A stretch of 64,000 nucleotides of DNA from Bacteroidales bacterium (GTDB taxonomy: Bacteria; Bacteroidota; Bacteroidia; Bacteroidales; VadinHA17). The stretch lies in contig JAIPBU010000016.1 of NCBI GenBank assembly GCA_021738535.1, positions 1-64,000 on the forward strand, written 5' to 3'. Below the pieces are notes generated by a model. The model had not been told where the DNA came from, made no database searches, and saw nothing but the letters and a program-made list of their open reading frames with translations. Within the stretch, counting starts at the first letter, position 1; each line of letters begins with the position of its first letter. The position numbers and the translations under genes are program-made. Positions 38,789-57,620 of this stretch are shown in pieces.

Positions 38789-38804
38789 TTGTTCCACGTG
38801 AAAC
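38789..38804. promoter_or_regulatory. parS site (ParB binding site) candidate
   Basis: TGTTCCACGTGAAACA matches TGTTNCACGTGAAACA at all positions; intergenic. Confidence 0.85.
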
Positions 38805-38880
38805 AATACATTTATAATTTATAATTGATAATTGTCAATTTGGGTCTTTTTACACTTTCCGGACCCATTATAAATAATCA

Positions 38881-38913: not shown

Positions 38914-40788
38914 TCATTTTCCCAGGTACAAGAGCAAAACACTTATATCAGCAGGTGATACACCACTTATTCTGCTTGCTGCCCCAACCGTTACCGGTCT
39001 GATCCTTTCCAGTTTTTGCCTTCCCTCTGTTGATATGGATTTCAGGCTTTCAAAATTCAGGTCATCAGGAATTTTGAGATCATTCATTCTTTTTATCCTT
39101 TCGGCTACCCCTCTCTCTCTTTCAATATATCCCCTGTATTTAATCTTAATTTCTGCAGACTCAATAATTTCCTCCAGCCTTTCCCCCATTTCATTCATTA
39201 ATACCATTCCCTCCCCGGATTTCTCCATCAATCCCTTCAAACCAAGTTGAGGCCGAAGGACCAGCTTTTCGATTCTTTGTGTCTCTTTTATAGCAGTGGT
39301 TCCACACTGTTCGAGATAATCATTTATCTCTCCCGGCTTAAACCTCGCGCTTTTAACAAAATCCATTACTCTTTCAACATACGCTTTCTTTTCCCTGTAT
39401 CTTTGAACCCTTTCCTCATCTGCCAGGCCAATTTTATATGCTCTTTCAGTCAGTCTTTCATCAGCATTATCCTGTCTTAACAATATCCTGTACTCTGCCC
39501 TGCTTGTAAACATTCTGTATGGTTCATCTACTCCTTTATTTACAAGGTCATTAATCAATACGCCTATATATGATTCATCCCTTTTCATTACAAAAGGCTC
39601 ATCGCCCCTTATTTTCTGCACGGAGTTTATACCGGCAATTAAACCCTGTGCGCCGGCTTCTTCATAACCGGTTGTACCATTAACCTGTCCTGCAAAATAT
39701 AGTCCATTAATTAATTTTGTTTCCAGCGTTTCCTTAAGTTGTGTTGGCTGAAAAAAATCATATTCTATTGCATAACCAGGCCTGTGAATTTTTACATTCT
39801 CCAGTCCTGGGATTTTTCTCAAAGCATCCAACTGCACCTCGAGCGGCAGGCTTGATGAATAGCCATTAATATAGTATTCATTAGTATCCCACCCTTCCGG
39901 CTCCAAAAATAACTGGTGACGGTCTTTGCCCTCAAATGTTACAATCTTATCTTCGATGCTCGGGCAATACCTCGGTCCTATTCCCTTAATCCTGCCCTGG
40001 AACAGTGGACTGTGTTTAATTCCTTCTCTTAGTTTTTCATGCACCCCTGTGTTTGTATGTACTATGTAACAGCTCCTTGGGTTGTCTATTTTTACCCTGT
40101 CATTCATAAATGAAAAACACCTGTGTTCTTTCTCCGACTCCTGTTCTGACATTTTACTGAAATCAACACTCCTCCCATCAATTCTAGCACTTGTTCCTGT
40201 TTTCATCCTCTCAACGCTAAACCCAATATCCCTTAATTGTTCACTGATTCCCTTTGATGGTTCATCTCCTGATCTGCCACCCTCAACCACATTATAACCA
40301 ACATGCATTAAGCCGTTAAGGAAAGTTCCTCCTGATAGAATAACAGCCTTGCCATAAAAACTTGTTCCAAAACTTGTCTCCACACCCTTAGCTCTTCCTT
40401 CGTCTATAATAATACGTGTTGCCTTTTCCTGCCACAAATCCAGCATCTTAACCTCCTCAAGTTTCTTTCTCCATACCCTGCTGAACATCATCCTGTCCGA
40501 TTGAGCTCTGGGGCTCCACATTGCCGGACCTTTTGACCGGTTTAAAAGCCTGTACTGGATCATGCTCTCATCTGTCACAATACCTGAAAGTCCACCCAGT
40601 GCGTCTATTTCCCTAATAATCTGACCCTTAGCAACTCCTCCCATTGCCGGGTTACACGACATCTGGGCCATCTTGCTCATATCCATGGTAATAAGGATTG
40701 TTTTCATTCCCATTTTAGCAGCTGCATGTGCAGCCTCACATCCTGCGTGACCTCCTCCAACAACAATTATATCATAATCAAATTGCAT
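38914..40788 (-). CDS. mnmG: tRNA uridine-5-carboxymethylaminomethyl(34) synthesis enzyme MnmG (GidA)
   Basis: IIVVGGGHAGCEAAHAAAKMG, MSCNPAMGGVAKGQIIREIDALGG, GQVNGTTGYEEAGAQGLIAG. Confidence 0.98.
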   Translation of the reverse strand: MQFDYDIIVVGGGHAGCEAAHAAAKMGMKTILITMDMSKMAQMSCNPAMGGVAKGQIIREIDALGGLSGIVTDESMIQYRLLNRSKGPAMWSPRAQSDRMMFSRVWRKKLEEVKMLDLWQEKATRIIIDEGRAKGVETSFGTSFYGKAVILSGGTFLNGLMHVGYNVVEGGRSGDEPSKGISEQLRDIGFSVERMKTGTSARIDGRSVDFSKMSEQESEKEHRCFSFMNDRVKIDNPRSCYIVHTNTGVHEKLREGIKHSPLFQGRIKGIGPRYCPSIEDKIVTFEGKDRHQLFLEPEGWDTNEYYINGYSSSLPLEVQLDALRKIPGLENVKIHRPGYAIEYDFFQPTQLKETLETKLINGLYFAGQVNGTTGYEEAGAQGLIAGINSVQKIRGDEPFVMKRDESYIGVLINDLVNKGVDEPYRMFTSRAEYRILLRQDNADERLTERAYKIGLADEERVQRYREKKAYVERVMDFVKSARFKPGEINDYLEQCGTTAIKETQRIEKLVLRPQLGLKGLMEKSGEGMVLMNEMGERLEEIIESAEIKIKYRGYIERERGVAERIKRMNDLKIPDDLNFESLKSISTEGRQKLERIRPVTVGAASRISGVSPADISVLLLYLGK

Positions 40789-54107: not shown

Positions 54108-55658
54108 CTATTTAATAATTTTTATTTCTCTTTCGGGCAGATTAACCTTTATTCCGTTTATCCTTGTTTCTATGTCGTTCTTATAGGTTATTGTCATTAC
54201 CAGTATTCCTTCTTCACTATATTTCTTCCATGTTCGATGCCTTAGGCCCATATCATAAAACTGCTCTTCCCTGATACGCCCGTTGTCATAATAATAGAAA
54301 TGATACCCGTCAGGATTATCCTGTATGTAATCTCCCCTGTAAAGCAGGTTATTTTCATCGTCATAATATTTCCATAATCCATCCCGCAAGCCAATAATAT
54401 AATTACCTTCTTCACGGTGGTCTCCTATTGTGATCTTCCATTTTCCATTTCTTTCACCATCAAGATATTCACCTTCACTAATAATTTTACCATCCTTTGA
54501 ATATTCAACAAACCTTCCATCACGGCTACCCTGGTAATATTGCTCTTCCCTCAAAATTGAACCATCCGGATAATACCACTTCCATAATCCCTCCGGCCGT
54601 CCGTTCCTGTATTGACCTGTCTGCACAATATTTCCTTCCCTGTTATAAAATTTCCATGATCCCGTTCTACGGTTATTATCATATGCACCTTCTTCCTTCA
54701 GGCTGCCTCCTGTATAATAATTCTTCCAATTCCCCTCTCTTCTGCCATCTTCAGTTACAATACCTTCAGACATTTTCTGACCCCTGTCATTGTAAATAAC
54801 AGACGATATTACATTTCCGTTTTTATCATAGTTTCTGTGTATGCCCACCGGCACATCCCTCCTGAAAGGACCGCTGAATATTAGATTACCATCATTGTCA
54901 TATTCATTTCTTAAATCTATTTCAGGATCATCATCAATATTTTCCTCTACTATTTTACCATTATCGTAGAGCATAGTTTCAGTTAAAATGCCTTTTTTGT
55001 TATATTTTTTATAATACCCGTTGAGTAATCCATCTTTATAGCTCATTTCAGTTTTGATCTTTCCGTCTTCATAAAATTCCTTCCATGGACCCTGTTTGAG
55101 ACCCTCACTATCTGTCCTGTTAATCCTTTCCCTGCTTATAAGAAAATCATTATTGTACTCATAAAGAGTAATTAACTTACCTTCTTTATCATATTCCCTT
55201 GACAGACCCTGCTTTTTACCGTCTATATACGGAATTGTTTGCTTTACAGAGCCATCGGGGTAATACCTGTATGCAGTTCCCTGTCTTTTATTTGCAGCAT
55301 ATAATTCCTTGGACCATACATACAGTCCATAGCTTATGTCTCTCTTATATTTATAGTAATAGCCGCTTTTTTTACCATAGAGGTAACTTATTTTCTCAAG
55401 TGTATCACCCGTTTGTGTGTAAAAAACCCAAATACTGTCAAGTAAATGATTTCTCCTTTTTCCTTCAGATTTAAGAACACCTGTAACATAATAACTTTTC
55501 CAGTAACCATCCGGTTTACCATTTCTTATATATCCCTCACTTGAAACAGTACCGTTTGGATACTTAAAAACATGATAACCGTCCTCCAGGTCCGTATTCT
55601 GAGAAAACATAACAGCCGGTACAGAAACAAGAAATATTATTAAAGCCTTCTTTATCAT
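54108..55658 (-). CDS. Exported YwqK/MORN-like repeat protein
   Basis: Signal peptide ([20 protein letters not shown]) then many G-x-W-K-x-Y-x-x-x-G repeats ([67 protein letters not shown]). Confidence 0.85.
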
Positions 55659-55661
55659 ATT

Positions 55662-56657
55662 TTATATACCAAGATGATCAGAAATTTCAAGCATTTTTCT
55701 TATTGGCCTCTCTGCTTTTTTCATCAGCTCATCATTCATTATTAATTCAGGTTCTTCATATTTTAAACTGAGATAAATCTTTTCCATTGTGATAAGCTTC
55801 ATAAAATTGCATTCACTGCAGCCACATGTAGAATCTTTTGCAGGTGCAGGAATAAATGTTTTATCCGGCCTGTTTTTTTTCATCTGGTGAATTATTCCCG
55901 GCTCAGTACCAACAATATATTTCAGGGAATCATCCTTATTAATATGCTTAAGCAAAGCACCCGTTGAACCAATGAAATCTGCTACCATCCTGACCGGTAA
56001 TTCACATTCAGGATGCACAATAATGCTTGCATCAGGATTACTGTTTTTAATATCCAATATTCTTTCAAGGGAAAACTCCTCGTGAACATGACATGCCCCC
56101 TGCCAGATAAGCATGTCCCTGTCAACCTTATTGCTTATATAATTTCCAAGATTCCTGTCTGGTGCAAATATAAGTTTTTCATCTTCCGGAAGATATTCAA
56201 CTATTTTAAAAGCATTGGTAGAAGTACAGATAATATCTGAAAGAGCTTTTATCTCAGCTGCTGAATTAATATATGTTATTACAGTCCTGTCCGGATTGGC
56301 CTCAACAAATTTTTTAAATTCTTCGGGCGGACAAGAATCTGATAGCGAACAACCGGCATTAAGATCCGGAATAAGCACTTTTGTTTGAGGCGAAAGGATT
56401 TTTGCTGTTTCAGCCATAAAATGCACACCGGCAAATAAAATAATGTCGGCATTTACACTGGCTGCTTTCCTGGAAAGGTCAAGACTGTCGCCTACAAAAT
56501 CTGCAATATCCTGTATATCTGGTGTCTGATAATAATGTGCCAGGATAACAGCATTCTTTTCCTTCCTTAGTTTGTTTATCTCTGCCTTAAGGTCTGTGCC
56601 TTTTTCAATTTTTTCGTCTATATATCCCTTTTCCGTAATATCAGACCTTTTAAACAT
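55662..56657 (-). CDS. nadA: Quinolinate synthase
   Basis: ILAHYYQTPDIQDIADFVGDSLDLSRKA, HPECELPVRMVADFIGSTGAL, CGCSECNFMKL. Confidence 0.97.
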   Translation of the reverse strand: MFKRSDITEKGYIDEKIEKGTDLKAEINKLRKEKNAVILAHYYQTPDIQDIADFVGDSLDLSRKAASVNADIILFAGVHFMAETAKILSPQTKVLIPDLNAGCSLSDSCPPEEFKKFVEANPDRTVITYINSAAEIKALSDIICTSTNAFKIVEYLPEDEKLIFAPDRNLGNYISNKVDRDMLIWQGACHVHEEFSLERILDIKNSNPDASIIVHPECELPVRMVADFIGSTGALLKHINKDDSLKYIVGTEPGIIHQMKKNRPDKTFIPAPAKDSTCGCSECNFMKLITMEKIYLSLKYEEPELIMNDELMKKAERPIRKMLEISDHLGI

Positions 56658-57176
56658 ATTATTATTATTATTTAATTATATATATAACCTCTATGATAAT
56701 AGTAGTATCCTGTTGAAACTGTTTAAACAAAATACAAAAATATCTTGCAAAAACAGATATTAATAGCCCGGAAACACTTTTTCAACATTTCAAATATTAT
56801 ACCGTTTTTGATTTACAGATAATTATGTACTTTACTAACAATTGTTAATATTGTTTTATCACCCTAAAAGTACAACAATTTTATACCAAATCATTGTTCA
56901 ACAGAAGTTGAAATATTGGTTTAAAAAATTAATAAATATTGCTTATTTAATGTTTAGCCTGGCAGATTGTTGAAAGAGCCCTAATTATTAAAACATTTTA
57001 ATAAGTAATTAACAGTTTTCAACAATACTTTGAACATGATTATAGTCAGAATCATTGAGTAATTAAACAATATAGATGCCATACTGTTGTAGTAAAGGGA
57101 CAGGTATTAAAAGACAAAAAAGTATTATATTTATTTTATTGATATTATCTTTATCATTGTCCCAATAAATCTTCAC
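56658..57176. other. AT-rich intergenic region with TTCAACA/TGTTGAA repeats; candidate oriC or large regulatory region
   Basis: Sites at 56711-56719, 56779-56787, 56895-56903, 56906-56914, 56968-56976, 57016-57024; palindromes TAACAATTGTTA and TTCAAC-AGAA-GTTGAA. Confidence 0.45.
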
Positions 57177-57620
57177 ATGAGTAAAAAAATAATAATAGCG
57201 GCAGATCATGCAGGTTTTAAACTGAAAGAAAAGATCAAAGCTTACCTTATCAAAAATAATTATGAGGTGAAAGATGCAGGCACTGCATCGGATGATAGTG
57301 TAGATTACCCTGATTTTGCCCATCCTGCTGCCAGTGGAGTAGAAGCAGGTAAATATGACCTGGGGATAACTGTCTGCGGTAGTGGAAACGGAATTAATAT
57401 TACAGCAAATAAATACCAGGGAATAAGATCAGCATTATGCTGGAATGAAGAGATAAGCAGGCTGGCACGGGCACATAATGATGCAAATATTTGTGCTTTG
57501 CCGGGAAGGTTTATATCCGAAGCGGAGGCATTGCTTATTGTGCGCACCTTCTTAAATACAGGTTTTGAAGGAGGAAGACATAAAAGGCGAATAGATAAAA
57601 TACCATTAAAGAGACTCTGA
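57177..57620 (+). CDS. rpiB: Ribose 5-phosphate isomerase B
   Basis: IAADHAGFKLKEKIKAYL, VDYPDFAHPAA, GITVCGSGNGINITANKYQGIRSALCW. Confidence 0.96.
   Translation: MSKKIIIAADHAGFKLKEKIKAYLIKNNYEVKDAGTASDDSVDYPDFAHPAASGVEAGKYDLGITVCGSGNGINITANKYQGIRSALCWNEEISRLARAHNDANICALPGRFISEAEALLIVRTFLNTGFEGGRHKRRIDKIPLKRL

Follow-up and report, generated by a model that had tools for sequence, protein, structure and literature searches.

A predicted chromosomal replication origin with variant DnaA-boxes between nadA and rpiB in a Bacteroidota bacterium

Introduction

In the Bacillus subtilis oriC, the basal unwinding system (BUS) consists of tandem DnaA-boxes, a short G-containing spacer, and at least three triplets, the DnaA-trios (PMC6669920, PMC8287927). 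The trio consensus is 3'-GAT-5', and the rule used to search for a BUS asks for a DnaA-box no more than 16 bp from at least three NAN triplets, the box having at most two mismatches to TTATCCACA, with species-specific boxes allowed (PMC8287927). An oriC lying away from dnaA is common in Bacteroidetes (PMC4755523). The origins predicted there with DoriC/Ori-Finder, such as that of Prevotella intermedia (PMC4755523), are intergenic regions at a skew switch that contain several DnaA-boxes and lie far from dnaA. For P. intermedia, the prediction was made with the E. coli box, allowing one mismatch.

Lineage-specific boxes have been described in other phyla. The box TT(T/A)TCAACA was proposed for mollicutes, in which oriC was sought around dnaA; the review that discusses it doubts the motif in phytoplasmas (PMC3322544). 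The epsilonproteobacterial variant, in which the change is T5, has been attributed to changes in the DnaA recognition helix near residue 435 (PMC5043019). According to work that the same article summarises, DnaA residues 432-435 contact bases.

Here we analyse a window of 64,000 nucleotides from a draft Bacteroidales genome, and predict that the gap between nadA and rpiB (56658-57176) is very probably where chromosome replication starts (oriC) in this Bacteroidota bacterium. Computation finds a skew minimum, conservation, a box array, and an unwinding module at this place. The locus resembles the published Bacteroidetes predictions in being an intergenic region at a skew switch, with several DnaA-boxes and far from dnaA, and differs from that of P. 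intermedia in its TTWTNAACA box, its nadA-rpiB context, and its conserved unwinding module. Neither a nadA-rpiB rule nor a TTWTNAACA box for Bacteroidota was found in the searchable papers, which include no preprints or subscription articles and not the DoriC tables.

Results and discussion

A dense array of DnaA-box-like sequences

The gap is 519 bp long with an A+T content of 77%. It separates nadA, encoding quinolinate synthase (55662-56657, minus strand; NF006878, 443 bits), from the divergent rpiB, encoding ribose-5-phosphate isomerase B (57177-57620, plus strand; TIGR01120, 152 bits); both are neighbours of the gap that are conserved in relatives. A preliminary description of this DNA reported five copies of TTCAACA in the gap, and all five are present: 56781-56787, 56897-56903, and 57018-57024 on the plus strand, and 56711-56717 and 56968-56974 on the minus strand. 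The chance expectation is 0.14 with a maximum of 2 in 2000 dinucleotide shuffles of the gap, close to the rough ~0.1 first estimated. TAACAATTGTTA and TGTTTAAACA had likewise been located correctly. TTCAACA is nevertheless too narrow as a consensus, since k-mer counts in relatives return TGAACA, TTAACA, and TCAACA alike.

Counted as WTNAACA, the motif occurs 12 times over both strands of the gap. Canonical boxes of the TTATCCACA type, which are typical of oriC but not obligatory, are absent: neither WTNCACA nor TTWTNCACA occurs on either strand of the 519 bp. Apart from a tandem pair near nadA, described below, sequence matches define DnaA-box-like elements at 56779-56787 (TTTTCAACA, plus strand), 56843-56851 (ATATTAACA, minus strand), 56895-56903 (TGTTCAACA on the plus strand and TGTTGAACA on the minus strand), 56968-56976 (CTTTCAACA, minus strand), and, all on the plus strand, 57006-57014 (TAATTAACA), 57016-57024 (TTTTCAACA), 57028-57036 (CTTTGAACA), and 57061-57069 (AATTAAACA).

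The unusual feature is the clustering of the motif in the gap, rather than its excess in the window or the genome. TTCAACA is somewhat over-represented across the whole window (31 copies against 13.5 expected), and TTTTCAACA occurs 157 times genome-wide against 31 for the reversed pattern, which served as control. Codon usage or dispersed DnaA sites are possible reasons for this genome-wide excess. Within 461 kb of sampled stretches of the same genome, however, other stretches of 519 bp reach at most 3 TTCAACA and 6 WTNAACA, compared with 5 and 12 in the gap. The second-densest WTNAACA stretches, with 6 each, are the dnaA promoter on another contig (C42) and a site at ~25.2 kb of the window.

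Strand asymmetry in the genome and its relatives

On the whole 72.6-kb contig, which is the extent covered by the skew analysis in this 61-contig draft, the cumulative GC-skew minimum lies at 56902 and the cumulative AT-skew minimum at 56723, both inside the gap. The switch in gene polarity noted in the preliminary description is confirmed, except that genes at 49.6-51.6 kb lie on the plus strand. Skew partly follows gene orientation, and orientation also switches at the gap; skew was therefore examined in relatives.

The complete genome G251 (a single 4.118-Mb contig) has its skew minimum at 1,861,949, adjoining the gap upstream of rpiB. Skew is negative in 11 of 11 samples to the left of this gap (1-1.862 Mb) and positive in all nine to its right (1.862-3.82 Mb), and the signs are the same when third codon positions are taken alone and the two coding strands averaged. 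The dnaA gene of G251, at ~1.2 kb, is 1.86 Mb from the gap and near the expected terminus, and no negative-to-positive switch occurs there. The skew minimum also falls within the nadA-rpiB gap in G016. Skew is weak in some relatives, namely G128, G173 (see below), and G019. In G128 it switches sign where expected, with the exact minimum 33 kb off; in G019 the minimum is elsewhere. The GC-skew minimum thus lies inside the gap on the contig itself and beside it in G251, and matches it inexactly or not at all in these three relatives.

Conservation of the gap

Loci of relatives were oriented by tblastn. The same cluster, which the preliminary description had suggested looking for, is conserved: an AT-rich nadA-rpiB gap rich in WTNAACA is retained, and the gaps first compared contain 6-12 WTNAACA in 19 of 19 cases, the window's own included. 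On the far side of nadA, a gene for a protein that by eye resembles MORN/YwqK-like repeat proteins (54108-55658) adjoins it, and a similar gene, again judged by eye, seems to be present next to the origin in some relatives (G026 and G251; L036, L193).

The complete relative G173, from the same order and assembled as a single 3.288-Mb contig, separates the two flanking genes. Its rpiB has moved to 1.24 Mb, away from the skew minimum at 2,627,301, and has no WTNAACA cluster in its upstream region. A density search over 320 kb around the minimum, made independently of any gene, placed the densest WTNAACA window at 2,665,679, ~38 kb from the minimum and directly adjoining nadA (minus strand). This window contains three copies each of TTATCCACA and TTATCAACA; the nadA-linked place thus combines classical with variant boxes.

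A BUS-like unwinding module

The end of the gap that faces nadA contains a BUS-like unwinding module on the minus strand (56694-56728), composed of GTTTAAACA, GTTTCAACA, the spacer GGATA, and the triplets CTA CTA TTA TCA, and directed towards nadA. The first of the tandem DnaA-boxes, GTTTAAACA (56720-56728), is a palindrome already picked out in the preliminary description; the second, GTTTCAACA (56711-56719), includes one of the TTCAACA copies, and the two stand one base apart. Of the DnaA-trio-like triplets (56694-56705), the first three fit the trio consensus, reading 3'-GAT GAT AAT-5' on the other strand. Beside them lies an AT-rich stretch (56658-56693) that is presumably part of the unwinding element, A+T amounting to 90% at 56658-56697.

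The strict module pattern is present in 19 of 147 rpiB-upstream regions, compared with 0.03 expected from shuffles, and occurs once in the 461 kb of its own genome. Aligned relatives have the same order of elements at a similar distance from nadA, namely TNAACA boxes in tandem, then a spacer resembling GGATA, then NNA triplets. Their triplets are mostly 3'-ART-5' (TYA on the box strand) and do not keep strictly to the B. subtilis pattern 3'-RAT-5'.

Like the B. subtilis BUS, the module has tandem DnaA-boxes, a short G-containing spacer, and at least three triplets, and its CTA CTA TTA fits 3'-GAT GAT AAT-5'. It is unlike that BUS in its TNAACA boxes, its conserved GGATA spacer, and the predominance of TYA triplets among relatives. 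The arrangement GTTTCAACA-GGATA-CTA-CTA-TTA (56697-56719, minus strand) conforms to the triplet part of the BUS search rule. By inspection, GTTTCAACA has three mismatches to TTATCCACA and GTTTAAACA has four, which exceeds the two allowed, while boxes of relatives, such as TTATCAACA, have one. The module is therefore called BUS-like, and not BUS, because the boxes in the window break the mismatch rule and because the triplets of relatives more often read 3'-ART-5'.

The variant box and the DnaA recognition helix

In 45 gaps, comprising the nadA-side gaps of relatives and those of G173 and G251, position x of TTWTNxACA is A in 115 cases (22.9 expected), C in 10 (6.9), T in 13 (17.5), and G in none (5.2). 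A dominates, and the box is therefore TTWTNAACA, that is, TTWTNCACA with C6 replaced by A. What had been taken for degenerate boxes are instead copies of a consistent variant. The mollicute box has the same C-to-A change at position 6 in another phylum. The epsilonproteobacterial variant is comparable as a lineage-specific change, though at T5 and not at A6.

The DnaA encoded in this genome matches domain IV of the E. coli protein (1j1v), with GGKDHATV in place of the GGRDHTTV of E. coli. KDHATV is common to all family members examined. G173, in which the boxes are mixed, has RDHSTV, and the DnaA of the complete genome G254 has KDHSTV. In G035 (L038), canonical TTATCCACA and TTATGCACA are mixed with variant boxes upstream of rpiB, and DnaA reads GNKNHATV, with Asn where Asp433 is usual. 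To judge from few contrasts, it is probable that the altered recognition helix (KDHATV for RDHTTV) reads the C6-to-A change. TTTTCAACA and TTATTAACA are predicted binding sequences of the cognate DnaA.

The dnaA locus and a parS-like site

The dnaA gene is on contig C42, and the proposed origin, on contig C9, is not adjacent to it. The preliminary description considered such a separation noteworthy; as set out above, it had already been reported as common in Bacteroidetes. The dnaA promoter (C42 near 38997, L290; L009 2860-3207) has 6 WTNAACA in 519 bp, tied for second place in the 461 kb. Fifteen dnaA upstream regions together contain 14 TTWTNAACA and no TTWTNCACA, and the cluster at the promoter suggests DnaA autoregulation via the same variant box.

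A parS-like site, TGTTCCACGTGAAACA (38790-38805, plus strand), is located ~18 kb from the proposed origin, just beyond the 3' end of mnmG (38914-40788). It adjoins mnmG as first described, but is one base off TGTTTCACGTGAAACA and so not a perfect parS; 0.01 such sites with one mismatch are expected.

Alternative explanations

That the gap is a region of divergent promoters, and that TTTTCAACA is found 157 times in the genome, might be expected if the array were a dense set of operators for a transcription factor controlling nadA and rpiB. The preliminary description had named repeats upstream of many genes as an outcome that would favour such a motif, and no comparable density was found elsewhere in the 461 kb. 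Comparable clusters exist without a nadA neighbour (for example L105 from Marinifilum, L161 from Flavobacterium, and G251), and in G173 it is the nadA-side gap near the skew minimum that has a cluster, while the distant rpiB has none. The other dense cluster sits at dnaA; the motif differs from the DnaA-box by a single base and is accompanied by a trio-like module. On context and skew, a plain transcription-factor array was rejected, and we consider it very unlikely.

In E. coli, clusters of DnaA-binding sites occur outside oriC. By that precedent, the origin could lie elsewhere, for example at dnaA with its own 6 WTNAACA, and the gap could titrate DnaA or have a regulatory role in the manner of datA or DARS. 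A skew switch is not where a titration site would be expected, however, and an origin at dnaA was rejected: 20 kb of C42 around dnaA show no skew minimum, and in the complete genomes G251 and G173 dnaA is at the start of the record and distant from the minimum. This explanation seems to us even less credible than an operator array. The reading of the gap as an origin is in turn supported by the skew minimum within it, the switch beside the orthologous gap in G251, the conserved cluster, and a motif density unmatched in the 461 kb.

Proposed mechanism and implications

At the proposed origin, DnaA encoded on the other contig would bind the array of TTWTNAACA-type boxes, and a DnaA filament would extend from the tandem pair (56711-56728) across the GGATA spacer and the triplets. 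The AT-rich DNA next to nadA would then melt and the helicase would load, with two forks departing in opposite directions. The switches in gene polarity and skew, and the nearby parS-like site, are consistent with such a two-fork mechanism.

We further propose, with about equal expectation of being right or wrong, that in much of Bacteroidota a change from Thr435 to Ala in the DnaA helix (E. coli numbering) made the box TTWTNAACA. Origins would occupy an ancestral nadA-rpiB site, distant from dnaA, and share a conserved module of tandem boxes, GGATA, and triplets, and lineages with Ser at residue 435, such as G173, would keep a mix of TTATCCACA and TTATCAACA.

Origins of this kind can escape software that by default looks for TTATCCACA and takes dnaA as its marker gene. 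The variant box, the nadA and/or rpiB context, and the module together make Bacteroidota origins predictable in draft genomes and metagenome bins, and the co-evolution of DnaA and its box becomes directly testable.
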